A stretch of 64,000 nucleotides of DNA from an uncultured Gemmatimonadales bacterium. Its GTDB lineage: Bacteria; Gemmatimonadota; Gemmatimonadetes; JACCXV01; JAHWKZ01. The notes under the pieces are model-generated. The model ran no database searches. It had not been told where the DNA came from and saw only the letters and a list, made by a program, of their open reading frames with translations. The stretch covers positions 7,448 to 71,447 of the forward strand of contig CAMYLR010000012.1 in NCBI GenBank assembly GCA_947259315.1, written 5' to 3'. Each line of letters opens with the position of its first letter. The first letter of the stretch is position 1. Position numbers and translations under genes: made by a program. Shown piece after piece: positions 24,032 to 28,758 of this stretch.

Positions 24032-25342
24032 GTGAGCAAGCGCTTCCTACTCGACACCAACGTTTTGCTGCACGACCCGAAGGCGTTGCTCGCGTTCGAG
24101 GACAACGCGGTGCTCTTGCCGATCTACGTCATCGAGGAGATCGACCGCTTCAAGCGTCAGCTGACCGGGCTGGGCGAAAACGCGCGCTGGATCAGCCGTT
24201 TCCTGGATCGTCTGCGCCGCCAAGGTCGGCTATCGGAGGGCGTCCCGCTCGAAACCGGGGGGTCGCTGAAGGTCGTCTTCGACCCCGACAACCCACAGCA
24301 GCCGATCACACACGGCAACGGCACGGTCGACAACGAGATCCTCAAGATCGCGCGGCACATTCGCGATGAGGATCCCGACGTTCCGCTGATCCTGGTGACC
24401 AAAGACGTAAACCTCAGAATCAAGGCTGACGCGCTCGGGCTGGCGGCCGAGGATTACGAAACCGACCGCGTTCGGCTCGACGACCTCTACTCGGGACAGA
24501 CCGAGCTGGAGCTGGGGGCGGAGGAGCTCGATCGGTTCCGCGAGGCGGGTGAGCTACCGTTGGTCGAGGGCGAGTTCTTCCCCAACGAGTACACGCTCCT
24601 GCGCGACCCCGAGGACGAGTCAAACACCGCGCTGGCTCGGATCGACGTTTTCGGCGGCCGGCTGTTGGCGTTGACCTCGAGCAGCGAAGGCGTGCAAGGC
24701 ATCCGGCCGCGCAACAAGGAGCAGTACTTCGCGCTCGACGCGCTGCTCGACCCCTCGATCGTATTGGTCACCCTGATGGGCAAGGCGGGCACCGGGAAGA
24801 CGTTGCTGGCGCTGGCGGCGGGCCTCGAACAAGTGCTTTCGGACGGTCCCTATCGTCACCTGCTCGTCTCGCGACCGACGTTCCCGATGGGCAAAGACAT
24901 CGGTTACCTGCCGGGCAACGTGGCCGAGAAGCTGAACCCCTGGATGCAACCGATCTTCGACAATCTTGCGCTGCTGTTGGAGGGCCGGCGCAGCCGCAAC
25001 GGCGATCGATCGGTGAGCGAGCTCATCCGGAGTGGAACGGTCGCCGTCGAGCCGCTGACCCACATCCGGGGCCGGTCGATCCCGCAGCAGTTCATGCTCG
25101 TCGACGAAGCACAGAACCTGACCCCGCTCGAGGTGAAGACGATCCTGACCCGCGTCGGCGACCACACCAAGCTCGTCCTGACCGGCGACCCGTGGCAGAT
25201 CGACACCCCGTACATCGACTCATCGACCAACGGCTTCAACCACGTCGTCCAGCACTTCCGCGATGTCCCGCTAGCGGCCCACATCGAGCTCCGCAAGGGC
25301 GAGCGGTCAAAGCTCGCCGAATACGCCGCCAACCTGCTGTAG
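24032..25342 (+). CDS. PhoH family protein with N-terminal PIN domain (PhoH2-type)
   Basis: A 436-residue PIN-PhoH fusion. The PIN nuclease-like domain (about 1-130) starts with FLLDTNVLLHDPKALLAFEDN and carries the acidic residues of the family (VIEEIDRF, DNEILKIA). The PhoH ATPase (about 225-436) has Walker A GKAGTGKTLLAL at about 250 and Walker B FMLVDEAQNLTP. PhoH2 proteins are described as RNA helicase/RNase couples in toxin-antitoxin-like settings. No separate antitoxin gene is seen upstream. It starts at GTG 4 codons after the aldehyde dehydrogenase, so it may sit in the same transcript. Confidence 0.9.
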   Translation: MSKRFLLDTNVLLHDPKALLAFEDNAVLLPIYVIEEIDRFKRQLTGLGENARWISRFLDRLRRQGRLSEGVPLETGGSLKVVFDPDNPQQPITHGNGTVDNEILKIARHIRDEDPDVPLILVTKDVNLRIKADALGLAAEDYETDRVRLDDLYSGQTELELGAEELDRFREAGELPLVEGEFFPNEYTLLRDPEDESNTALARIDVFGGRLLALTSSSEGVQGIRPRNKEQYFALDALLDPSIVLVTLMGKAGTGKTLLALAAGLEQVLSDGPYRHLLVSRPTFPMGKDIGYLPGNVAEKLNPWMQPIFDNLALLLEGRRSRNGDRSVSELIRSGTVAVEPLTHIRGRSIPQQFMLVDEAQNLTPLEVKTILTRVGDHTKLVLTGDPWQIDTPYIDSSTNGFNHVVQHFRDVPLAAHIELRKGERSKLAEYAANLL

Positions 25343-25552: not shown

Positions 25553-26128
25553 ATGAGGTTTTTGAAAACGACCGGTCTGGCACTGGCCAGCGCATTGGTT
25601 CTGGCCGCATGCCAGGACTCCGCCGCTCCAACCGGGGCCGATCTCGCACTCAACGGCGGCGAGGCACAAGTAGCGATGAAGGGGCGCGCCGACCTGCCAA
25701 GCATCGCCGAGCTCGCCCAGGGCACGACTCTCGAGGTGGCCCTCGACGCGGCGATGATAAAAGACGTGTTCGACGGCAAGCGGCACTACACGGTATTCGC
25801 GCCTACCGACGCGGCGTTCGATGCCACATTCGACTTTCTGCAGAACAGCTGCGGGATTACCCCCGGAGACCTGCTGGCCAATAAGGACTTGCTGACCCAG
25901 ATCCTGCTGTTCCACGTGGCTCGGGGAGACCGGACATCAACGGCGCTGCTCGCCTCGGGACAGGTGCGCATGCTGGACGGGAACCGGGCCACGATCGAGA
26001 ACGGAATGATCGAGGGTGCGACGCTCGGCCCGGTCGACATCCGAGCCCGCAATGGTATCGTTCATTTCATCGATGGCGTACTGATTCCGCCGGCGGTCGC
26101 GGATATTCTCGCCGACATCTGCTCTTAG
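25553..26128 (+). CDS. Fasciclin-domain lipoprotein
   Basis: A 191-residue protein with a lipoprotein signal peptide (TGLALASALVLAAC, lipid-modified Cys near residue 20). A single FAS1 domain follows (about 55-188), recognised by YTVFAPTDAAFDATF, LLTQILLFHVARG and GIVHFIDGVLIPP. FAS1 domains mediate adhesion or matrix contacts. The protein is probably attached to the outer membrane. AGGGAGC lies just before the ATG. A strong terminator follows, so this is a single-gene unit. Confidence 0.88.
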   Translation: MRFLKTTGLALASALVLAACQDSAAPTGADLALNGGEAQVAMKGRADLPSIAELAQGTTLEVALDAAMIKDVFDGKRHYTVFAPTDAAFDATFDFLQNSCGITPGDLLANKDLLTQILLFHVARGDRTSTALLASGQVRMLDGNRATIENGMIEGATLGPVDIRARNGIVHFIDGVLIPPAVADILADICS

Positions 26129-26137
26129 TTCGTCCAC

Positions 26138-26179
26138 AACGGCCCTGGGGTCCGAGATGCCCCGGGGCCGTTCTTTCTG
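26138..26179 (+). terminator. Rho-independent terminator after fasciclin gene
   Basis: AACGGCCCTGGGGT and ATGCCCCGGGGCCGTT form a GC-rich hairpin with one G-T pair around a short loop. TTCTTTCT follows. It starts ten bases after the stop codon. Confidence 0.8.
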
Positions 26180-26388
26180 TGAATAACGCGTGGATAAGTG
26201 GTGGAGAAAGAGACGCCACTTGTGGACACTCTGTGAAACCCTTGTACAGATCGTGCGAACCGATTCGACGCCTTTGGCTTACCGTTGTGATGTAGGAAAT
26301 AGCTTGACATGAGGATCGCCAACTACCCGTTTGGGAAGCACTTGTCCGACCCCCGCAGCGACCTTGTAACTCTTTATAGCGCAATAAG
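26180..26388. other. Non-coding, relatively AT-rich spacer upstream of the large RNA
   Basis: About 210 bases with no credible gene on either strand. AAGTGG and CCACTT near 26195-26220 form a short inverted repeat. GTGGATAAG and TGTGGACAC resemble weak DnaA boxes but are too few and too poor to suggest an origin. A TTGACA near 26303 has no matching -10. Confidence 0.5.
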
Positions 26389-26418
26389 TTGACACACTTC
26401 GAGGCGTCTTCATATAAT
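26389..26418 (+). promoter_or_regulatory. Consensus sigma-70 promoter of the large RNA
   Basis: TTGACA at 26389-26394 and TATAAT at 26413-26418 are both perfect consensus hexamers with an 18-bp spacer. It is the strongest promoter seen in the window. The expected transcription start, six to eight bases past the -10, falls at about 26425, exactly where the closing helix of the downstream RNA begins. Confidence 0.85.
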
Positions 26419-26425
26419 GATCTGC

Positions 26426-27463
26426 GAGGGTCGGATAGCGACCTGAAGCCTGGCACCGACACTCACTCCATGGGCCCTCAGGGAGGGCCGTGGACGTTCC
26501 ATAGGCGAGTCACCGGAGCAGCGATGCCACCGGGGTCGTCAGCGCAAGCTCGGAACGACGCGGCTTAAAGCTCACGGAGCAGAGACGAGGTGCAAGAAGC
26601 GCATAAGGGTTGTGGTTCCCGACGGGGGGCCGACCACGTTGCGGATCGAAACCCTGAGAGGCCGGCGCGACGCCGCTTGGCGTCGCATGCTAAGCCTGCG
26701 AGGGGAGCACGCGGGACGCTGCGCGCAACGCAACAGCGGAATGCCCTAGAGCGCGGAAACCCCAAGGGAGTAACGAGTGGGCGCACGGCTAACCCCCGTT
26801 CGCCTGCGACGGATTCTCGCGGGGAGCGAGGCCCTGAAGTCGGGCCGGTGATGATTTGGGATGTGGCTCCTGCGGGCTGCACCTGCTTTCAGAGACCGGT
26901 AAACGGCAAGAGGGCACAGGGCGCCGAGAGGCGTTACGGCTCCGCGGGAGGGGAAAGCTCCGAAGGGGAAAACCCCATGAGCGTTACCGGCCTGAAAAGG
27001 CTGGCAGGACGCGGGAGACGAAACGCGGCAAGAGGGTGGGAAACCCTGTAGTCGCACCGAAACCGGGACGAGGCAACTCCCGGGTGAGTGGGTTCCCGTA
27101 TCCGGATGCGTTGAAGGGGGAGAAACTCTATGGGAGGCGCTGGCTTTCGAGAGGAAGTCGGCAGGCCGCCCCGGTAACACTCTGCAGGGGAGTCAACCCT
27201 CAGAGAGGCGGTGTGCGGACGTCTTTGACTTTCGCATGCCATCGGTGAGCCAGGAAAACCCCAAGGTCGGGGCGCAAGCTAACGACGAAGGGGGAGCGCG
27301 AAACCAATGCCCGCGCTACTTGCTCACCGGGATGACCTCTGAAAGGGAGGCGAAACCCAGGAGAGGAGGCGCTGGCCGCGAGACCTTGGTCGAGCGGCGG
27401 AGCGCAGCTGGGAACGGCTCGGACTCCGGAGGAGGAAACAGGCCTCAGGCTTTTCCGGCCCTC
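26426..27463 (+). ncRNA. Large structured non-coding RNA, about 1,040 nt, family not recognised
   Basis: No ORF here is a credible gene, yet the segment has a consensus promoter and a T7 run directly after it (27466-27472). The ends pair: GAGGGTCGG (26426-26434) with CCGGCCCTC (27455-27463), nine pairs including one G-U. Internal helices include GCGACGCC/GGCGTCGC (26667-26686), CTCGC/GCGAG (26816-26830), GGGG-AAAA-CCCC (26965-26976) and GCCT-GAAA-AGGC (26990-27001). A long-range CGGTGAGC/GCTCACCG helix (27243-27250 with 27322-27329) encloses AGCGCG/CGCGCT (27295-27317). GAAA, GCAA and GTAA loop-like tetranucleotides recur throughout. The length exceeds RNase P RNA, and I see no group II intron 5' end or domain V. 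It resembles the large ornate RNA classes (OLE, GOLLD, ROOL) in style, not in any motif I can match. Confidence 0.8.
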
Positions 27464-27495
27464 ACTTTTTTTGCTGTCTCGTGCAGCGCGTCGAG

Positions 27496-27527
27496 AGCCG
27501 CCCGGTGTATGCCGGGCGGCTTTTTTT
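27496..27527 (+). terminator. Strong Rho-independent terminator downstream of the large RNA
   Basis: AGCCGCCCGG (27496-27505) pairs perfectly with CCGGGCGGCT (27512-27521) across a six-base loop. T7 follows at 27521-27527. It insulates the RNA from the thiolase operon. Confidence 0.92.
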
Positions 27528-27535
27528 GTGGCTGA

Positions 27536-27570: not shown

Positions 27571-28758
27571 ATGAAGTTTCGCTACGATCGTCCCGCGTTC
27601 TTGTGCGCCCCGGTGCGGACGCCGATCGGCAAGTTCGGCGGCGCACTGGCCGATAAGACCGCCCCCGACCTCGGTACTCACGCCGCCCGCGCGTGTCTCG
27701 ATCGAGCCGACGTAGACCCGGAAGCGATCGGACTCACGATCTTCGGCAACGCGCGCCAGGCGGGCGTGGGGCCCAACTCGGCCCGTCAGATCGCCTACCG
27801 CGCCGGTATACCCGAGAGTGCGCCGGCCTACACCATCAACCAGGCGTGTGCTTCGAGCTTGATCGGCATCATCCAGGCGTGGCAATCGATCGCTCTGGGC
27901 GACACCGATTTGGTGCTCGCCGGTGGGACCGAGGCGATGTCGCAAACGCCTTACATGCTCCCCCGCGCGCGATGGGGGTACCGGCTTGGCCACGGCGAGC
28001 TGGTTGACGGCATGTACCGGGACGGGTTCTTGTGCCCGTTGTGCGGCGATTTGATGGGCGAGACGGCGGAGACACTGGCCGATCGGTACGAGATCTCGCG
28101 CGAAGAGCAGGACCGTTACGCCATGGAGAGCCAGCACCGGTGCCAGGCGGCCCGGGAGGCCAGCCGGTGGGCGAGCGAGATCGCGCCCTTCCCGGATGGT
28201 CTCGATCACGACGAGCACCCGCGTGACGAGGTGACGCTCGACAAGCTCGCCAAGCTGCCGCCAGTATTCCGCGAGGCGGGCACGGTTCACGCCGGCAACG
28301 CGTCGGGGATCACCGACGCCGCTGCCGCGGTGCTGGTAGCCGCCGAGGATGCGGTTGAAAAGCACGGGCTCGAGCCGATGGCGCGGCTGGTCGACTGGAC
28401 CAACGTTGGCGTCGACCCGGCGGTGATGGGGATCGGCCCCGTGCCCGCGGTCCTCGAGCTGCTTCAGCGCCAGGACATGACGATCGACGACATCGACTTG
28501 ATCGAGCTAAACGAGGCGTTCGCGGTGCAGGTCCTGGCGGTGGCTCAAGACCTCGATCTCGACCTGAGCCGCGTCAACGTCAACGGCGGGGCGATCGCTC
28601 TGGGCCATCCGATCGGTTGCACCGGCGCGCGGATCGTGGTTTCGCTGCTTCACGAGATGGCGCGCCGCGAGAGCAGGCTCGGGATCGCGACGCTGTGCGT
28701 CAGCGGCGGCATGGGAACTTCGTTGCTCGTCGAGCGCGGCAGCGATGGGGGGAGCTGA
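27571..28758 (+). CDS. Acetyl-CoA acyltransferase (thiolase)
   Basis: A 395-residue thiolase, paralogue of the one at 2916. The nucleophilic cysteine is in TINQACASSLIG, the catalytic histidine in NGGAIALGHPIGCTGARI, and the second cysteine in ATLCVSGGMGTSLL. The NEAFAVQVLA segment is typical. ATG 27571 is the only sensible start: an earlier in-frame codon at 27481 would translate through the terminator hairpin. No Shine-Dalgarno is present, in line with a leaderless transcript. It heads an operon with a PaaG-like isomerase, PLP enzyme, dehydrogenase and hydratase. Confidence 0.92.
   Translation: MKFRYDRPAFLCAPVRTPIGKFGGALADKTAPDLGTHAARACLDRADVDPEAIGLTIFGNARQAGVGPNSARQIAYRAGIPESAPAYTINQACASSLIGIIQAWQSIALGDTDLVLAGGTEAMSQTPYMLPRARWGYRLGHGELVDGMYRDGFLCPLCGDLMGETAETLADRYEISREEQDRYAMESQHRCQAAREASRWASEIAPFPDGLDHDEHPRDEVTLDKLAKLPPVFREAGTVHAGNASGITDAAAAVLVAAEDAVEKHGLEPMARLVDWTNVGVDPAVMGIGPVPAVLELLQRQDMTIDDIDLIELNEAFAVQVLAVAQDLDLDLSRVNVNGGAIALGHPIGCTGARIVVSLLHEMARRESRLGIATLCVSGGMGTSLLVERGSDGGS

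Follow-up and report, generated by a model that had tools for sequence, protein, structure and literature searches.

Introduction

Very few bacterial RNAs longer than ~500 nt are known to have an elaborate fold that is conserved, and their function is mostly unknown. ROOL and GOLLD are large ornate RNAs of bacteria and phages (PMC12286853), and OLE RNA, of ~600 nt, is found in Gram-positive extremophiles and has membrane-linked protein partners (PMC9723947, PMC10898510). The structured bacterial RNA raiA/ModT has a gene of its own (PMC11706538).

We have analyzed a locus in an uncultured Gemmatimonadales bacterium. The window (the whole 64,000-nucleotide stretch of DNA examined here) is part of a 2.4-Mb assembly (G000, contig C12), and its region 26425-27527 (+ strand), which adjoins a metabolic operon, is almost certainly an independent gene for a large structured non-coding RNA, the transcription of which is inferred from a conserved promoter and terminator only. 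The RNA resembles ROOL and GOLLD in its size class, its many conserved helices and junctions, its own transcription unit and its lack of an ORF. It differs from them in matching no Rfam family at E ≤ 10, in occupying a vertically kept chromosomal locus of one family, and in having no match in the phage, viral and plasmid collections searched. Like OLE, it is large, conserved in structure and has a possible neighboring protein partner, but there is no sequence or structure match between the two, and the Gemmatimonadota RNA is 1.1 kb long and lies beside a PIN-PhoH gene. The raiA/ModT RNA is likewise structured and encoded by its own gene, but it belongs to other phyla and is far smaller, and the RNA studied here gave no cmscan match to it. 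As in known PhoH2 modules, the neighboring gene encodes a full-length PIN_4 + PhoH protein; the difference is that a relative from Geoalkalibacter has no RNA partner gene. In PhoH2 proteins, a PIN ribonuclease is joined to a PhoH RNA helicase, which makes an RNA partner or substrate plausible. We know of no RNA partner gene for PhoH2 elsewhere. A literature search restricted to open-licence papers found no description of this RNA.

Results

Promoter, terminators and extent of the RNA gene

The locus comprises the following features.

24032-25342, + strand: PIN-PhoH gene (RNase/helicase of the PhoH2 type), the product of which is a candidate partner of the RNA
25553-26128: lipoprotein gene with a fasciclin domain, lying between PhoH2 and the RNA
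26138-26172, + strand: terminator behind the fasciclin gene, which sets that upstream gene apart from the RNA
26178-26225, - strand: DnaA-box-like array, motif GTGGATAA, with ~11-bp spacing at the array start
26389-26394, + strand: -35 element TTGACA, same letters in 4/4 genomes
26413-26418, + strand: -10 element TATAAT, read as TATGAT, TATACT and TACGCT in the homologues
26425-27527, + strand: predicted primary transcript of the large structured non-coding RNA gene, ~1.1 kb, based on four-genome homology and covariation
27496-27527, + strand: intrinsic terminator of the RNA, with a 14-bp stem in the fold
27571-28758, + strand: thiolase gene, conserved downstream neighbor, preceded by a promoter-like site of its own (27536)

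The original prediction had described a perfect TTGACA/TATAAT promoter, and both direct reading and a promoter scan confirmed it. With an 18-nt spacer, this was the sole site in the region with 12/12 consensus matches, and 0.3 promoter-like sites would be expected in shuffles of the region. The -10 element ends 7 nt before GAGGGTCGG at 26426, and the 5' end of the RNA at 26425 was inferred from the promoter position. The promoter is retained across the homologues, with divergence in its spacer sequence. The proposed pairing of the RNA ends was also borne out and proved longer than thought, since the core of ~1.04 kb is joined at its ends by a helix of 12 consensus pairs (26426-26437/27452-27463), the outer part of which is nearly invariant.

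Two terminators had been proposed, and only one of them held. The hairpin at 27496-27527 was recovered with a stem of 14 bp instead of 10 bp, and the fold of 27452-27530, which includes it, had a z-score of -4.0. The T7 run at 27466-27472 is preceded by a long-range helix and not by a local hairpin, and therefore it is not an intrinsic terminator. As the conserved unit continues via a near-invariant tail to the hairpin terminator, the primary transcript more likely spans 26425-27527 (~1.1 kb), with the core accounting for ~1.04 kb. The terminators at 26138-26172 and 27496-27527 thus isolate the RNA segment as its own unit.

Homologues are found in a single family

BLASTN searches of 61 relatives and 394 genomes of the class, which the original prediction had proposed in more general form, returned full-length homologues only in three genomes (G002, G003 and G004), all of the same family and at the same locus (JAHWKZ010000073, JAICNR010000193 and JAICQP010000090). 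Their identity to the window was 72.6-76.1%, with G002 and G004 being 89% identical to each other. The G002 homologue lies on two contigs that overlap by 134 bases, and that of G003 has its 3' end cut by the contig end. The whole locus is missing from the assembly of the remaining family member (G001, 79% complete). The breaks of the G002 and G003 assemblies fall within the RNA (L003/L007, L004/L008 and L005/L009), as if strain variation or strong structure made the locus difficult to assemble.

Covariance models were built for two separate domains, R1 (147 positions) and R2 (152 positions). Searches of 394 class, 395 phylum and 276 class genomes gave significant E-values for R1 and R2 only in the four known genomes. 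Weak R2 matches in two genomes (G073 and G141, 23 bits) had E-values of ~0.07 per genome over 276 genomes, as expected by chance, and both lay in long-ORF stretches. Weak BLASTN matches in 62 further class genomes (E from 6e-5 to 0.01) were likewise rejected, with profile nhmmer scores below 7 bits on the loci that were fetched; those not fetched were not checked individually. The RNA had no blastn match in phages and plasmids, and three exact conserved patterns had none in viral contigs. A pattern scan of the genomes of 84,980 species retrieved the three known relatives plus three matches to the 18-base pattern that were attributed to chance (in Mycolicibacterium, a Verrucomicrobia and a Gammaproteobacteria MAG).

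The RNA is structured, non-coding and without a catalogued relative

The kilobase had been said to hold no plausible gene, and the homologue alignment agreed, with no conserved reading frame or third-position bias found in the RNA region. Indels that are not multiples of three made up 16-18 of the 18-19 per pair across the RNA, and substitutions were spread over the three phases (0.22-0.28 each). The adjacent PhoH2 gene, at similar identity, gave phases of 0.16/0.11/0.43, a clear third-position signal.

We have then derived a consensus structure of 319 pairs from the four-sequence alignment (window and three homologues). Standard pairs were found in 97.5% of its 1,259 cells, a value that fell to 39-43% when partners were slid by 1-3 columns. 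Two-sided compensatory changes occurred in 51 pairs versus 19.7 ± 3.3 in shuffles, none of 500 of which reached as high. RNAalifold on the four sequences gave -746 against -553 ± 11 for 60 column shuffles that preserve conservation (z -17.6), and the two-sided compensatory pairs numbered 52 versus 21 ± 4 (maximum 31). The 991-nt body of the window alone folded 4.3 sd below shuffles (20 shuffles). The reverse strand scored -674 and had 72 broken cells versus 32 on the + strand, together with fewer one-sided (G-U-type) changes. The weaker score and the broken cells of the reverse strand indicated that the transcript is the + strand, and this preference, the frame-breaking indels and the lack of codon periodicity supported that the region is a non-coding RNA.

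These figures have limits. The structure was tested on the same four sequences from which it was derived, which inflates especially the proportion of paired cells, and because the sequences are kin, the shuffle counts cannot be read as probabilities. The alignment holds only four sequences, including a close pair, so that covariation could not be resolved for every helix, and helices that never vary carry no test. If homologues with compensatory changes beyond those of shuffles define a conserved structured non-coding RNA, the locus qualifies; such changes had been named beforehand as support, and three further genomes carry them.

As the original prediction had it, the RNA matched no known family. 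The cmscan of the window against Rfam 15 gave no match at the gathering score, and permissive E-values for the region and its homologues gave only chance-level, unrelated sub-threshold matches, most of them located on the terminator, plus miRNA families. OLE, GOLLD, ROOL, raiA, HEARO, introns, RNase P and tmRNA were absent even at E ≤ 10, and the 6S and rRNA families likewise gave no match at the gathering score and nothing beyond chance level at permissive E-values. For group I and group II introns (group I core or domain V/VI), the Rfam models found nothing in the window at E ≤ 10 and nothing in the homologues at E ≤ 1. RNase P RNA could be rejected as an identity, since the genome carries an ordinary copy (RF00010, 228 bits) on another contig. 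The RNA family has no relative among the catalogued families and is thus new at the family level. The view of the locus as a large structured RNA gene outside known families was therefore upheld by full-length homologues, compensatory changes, strand preference, absence of coding constraint, the conserved promoter and tail, and lack of Rfam matches for the window or its homologues.

Domain architecture and a recurrent internal loop

The consensus fold is organized as follows.

26426-26437, + strand: 5' strand of closing helix P1, GAGGGTCGGAUA, pairing with 27452-27463 (97.8% of cells paired)
26450-26596, + strand: domain I, branched helix system (helices 3-10), with compensatory changes in helices 4, 5, 7, 8, 9 and 10
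26599-26754, + strand: domain II, multi-branch, with a GAG/GNG 3x3 loop (helices 11-20)
26760-26968, + strand: domain III, base CCCC-ARG-GGAGY / RCUYC-GAA-GGGG (helices 21-31)
26973-27119, + strand: domain IV, base CCCC-AUG-AGCGU / ACGCU-GAA-GGGG (helices 32-38)
27126-27368, + strand: domain V, 3-way junction (helices 39-51); model R2 covers 27197-27347
27369-27434, + strand: domain VI and two short hairpins (helices 52-54)
27452-27463, + strand: 3' strand of closing helix P1 (consensus helix 1)
27473-27520, + strand: near-invariant tail identified by homologue comparison, the part with hairpin GCUG/CAGC being 27473-27497

Domain II contains a variable hairpin (26669-26684) with four two-sided changes. 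Domain IV is the best conserved block and corresponds to covariance model R1; it has a base in common with domain III (CCCC-ANG-helix ... helix-GAA-GGGG). Domain V has two alternative closures, as RNAalifold under other settings paired 27126-27136 with 27424-27434.

A 3x3 internal loop with 5'-ANG-3' opposite 5'-GNA-3' recurs between helices of 4-5 bp and fits seven of the nine 3x3 loops. GAA nearly always forms one strand, with CCC(C/U)-ANG on the opposite one. The seven loops are the following.

26764-26766, + strand: ANG, opposite GAA at 26962-26964
26836-26838, + strand: GAA, opposite ARG at 26908-26910
26977-26979, + strand: AUG, opposite GAA at 27113-27115; drawn with a forced middle A-U pair
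27030-27032, + strand: ARG, opposite GNA at 27048-27050
27184-27186, + strand: GNA (GCA in the window, GAA in the homologues), opposite ANG at 27359-27361; forced middle pair
27201-27203, + strand: CAG (CGG/AGG in the homologues), opposite GAA at 27341-27343
27263-27265, + strand: ANG, opposite GNA at 27287-27289

With random base composition, each loop would fit with a chance of ~0.0125, and seven of nine with ~2e-12. This figure is rough because the motif was defined after the loops had been seen. RNAalifold placed a middle pair in two of the seven, and the loop at 27201-27203, for which the window has CAG and two homologues have CGG, fits the strict motif in one genome only.

The tail GCUGUCUCGUGCAGCGCGUCGAGAGCC is identical between the window and G004 and has one insertion in G002, far above the 76% identity of the body. 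Its hairpin loop UCUCG can pair with a downstream CGAGA, so that an H-type pseudoknot before the terminator, inferred from this complementarity, is possible. The tail was rejected as a repeated genomic element, being single copy in the genome. An origin of the RNA from sequence repeats was rejected as well, with only short two- or three-copy families found.

Gene neighborhood and the PhoH2 link

The order PhoH2-RNA-thiolase is conserved among the homologous loci. Only the window genome carries a fasciclin gene between PhoH2 and the RNA; the three relatives lack it at that position. Upstream of the RNA, between it and PhoH2, the DnaA-box-like array is conserved in 4/4 genomes, with the motifs TGTGAATAA, CGTGGATAA and GGTGGAGAA ~11 bp apart (window 26178-26225; L006 260-310) and an exact TGTGGATAA in G002 and G004. 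A replication origin at the array was rejected, with dnaA lying on another contig and the GC skew showing no sign switch at 26 kb.

The PIN-PhoH protein matches both the PIN_4 and PhoH domains over nearly the full profiles. At E ≤ 1e-50, among the 61 relatives and 394 class genomes, it was found only in the RNA-bearing family (in G004 it is present but truncated by the contig end). The gene and the RNA have therefore the same distribution and co-occur, albeit through one shared event only. At the corresponding site of a sister-family genome (G005; L059, G005:C47, 1490-1580), an aldehyde dehydrogenase gene is followed after ~35 bp by the thiolase gene, without PhoH2 and without the RNA. Together with the shared distribution, this site makes PhoH2 and the RNA appear as one inserted cassette. 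The data are suggestive of a joint gain in a single evolutionary event, the gain being inferred because PIN-PhoH is missing from every other class genome sampled, without formal polarity reconstruction of the empty site.

PIN-PhoH proteins are frequent both in other phyla and among viral contigs. No adjacent large RNA was annotated or evident as a gap beside the closest plasmid relative, on a Geoalkalibacter plasmid, and most PhoH2 genes on viral contigs had no large neighboring RNA. Two non-coding stretches beside PIN-PhoH genes on viral contigs of IMG/VR (L072 6297-6909 and L073 1-865) folded 3.6-4.0 sd below shuffles (20 shuffles); that of L073 also holds a tRNA and that of L072 probably holds a small gene. 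They could hide other PhoH2-linked RNAs, the relation of which to the window RNA is not established.

Discussion

Our tentative proposal is that the RNA gene was gained with PhoH2 and that its product is the scaffold of a ribonucleoprotein with PhoH2. Taken as a whole, this statement is somewhat more likely to be wrong than right, and transcription, particle formation, PhoH2 binding and the role are all inferred. An RNA gene with a P1-closed multi-domain fold would most likely have been acquired by the ancestor of one Gemmatimonadota family along with the PIN-PhoH gene next to it, and the RNA would act as the scaffold of a stable particle. The rods of 4-5-bp helices alternating with ANG/GNA 3x3 loops may be repeated docking or stacking elements. 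The PhoH2 helicase/PIN ribonuclease would reside in the particle and trim, remodel or use it, possibly for RNA turnover in times of stress. Against this, the link rests on adjacency and one shared gain, a single phylogenetic event, and PhoH2 and the RNA belong to separate operons. There are no transcription or binding data, and the known homologues number only four, including a pair with 89% identity.

The main rival, which remains a real possibility and which we rank second, is an ornate RNA acting independently of PhoH2, whether alone, as a homo-oligomer like those of ROOL and GOLLD, or with a protein encoded elsewhere, PhoH2 being a mere neighbor. The size, the multi-domain fold and the repeated loop modules suit an architectural RNA, the gene has its own promoter and terminator, and PhoH2 genes elsewhere lack such an RNA. 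What this reading leaves unexplained is that PhoH2 has the same distribution and the same insertion site.

That the ribonuclease gene and the structured RNA adjoin and are co-distributed would also be compatible with a toxin partner, in which the RNA restrains the PIN-PhoH ribonuclease, or is its designated substrate, as a type III-like antitoxin or decoy. We consider this unlikely. The known type III antitoxins consist of short repeats that precede the toxin gene within one operon, whereas this RNA is 1 kb long, lies downstream, has its own promoter and is not made up of sequence repeats.

More improbable still is that the RNA is a giant leader regulating the thiolase gene in cis, in which the terminator would serve as attenuator. 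The thiolase gene is on the same strand and directly follows the terminator in the genomes where this is visible, and the tail is near-invariant. However, the promoter-like site of the thiolase gene lies past the terminator, the thiolase gene of the sister family has no leader, and no clear antiterminator overlaps the terminator stem. The RNA is also far larger than any riboswitch known to us. Finally, a catalytic RNA or mobile-intron remnant (group I, group II or circularly permuted group II) has the least credit, for despite the size, the domains laid out around a central junction and the empty site of the sister family, there is no group I/II match in Rfam at the thresholds given above, the RNA is equipped with a promoter and terminator of its own, PhoH2 lies in the inserted segment as well, and the single-copy element has no splice context within a gene, lying between two intact genes, which argues against an interrupted host gene.

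Returning to the PhoH2 scaffold, we offer with added reserve the broader reading of a new class of RNA of >1 kb that forms a two-gene module with a PIN-PhoH machine, as its scaffold or dedicated substrate, was acquired as such by one Gemmatimonadota family and is built on a repeated ANG/GNA block. In kind, the RNA would join OLE, ROOL and GOLLD among the large ornate RNAs. With clear covariation, sharp borders, a defined taxonomic range and a candidate RNase/helicase partner of known biochemistry, it is a concrete test case for the function of such RNAs, both parts of which are amenable to laboratory work, and it means that narrow lineages of under-sampled phyla still harbor giant RNAs missing from Rfam.
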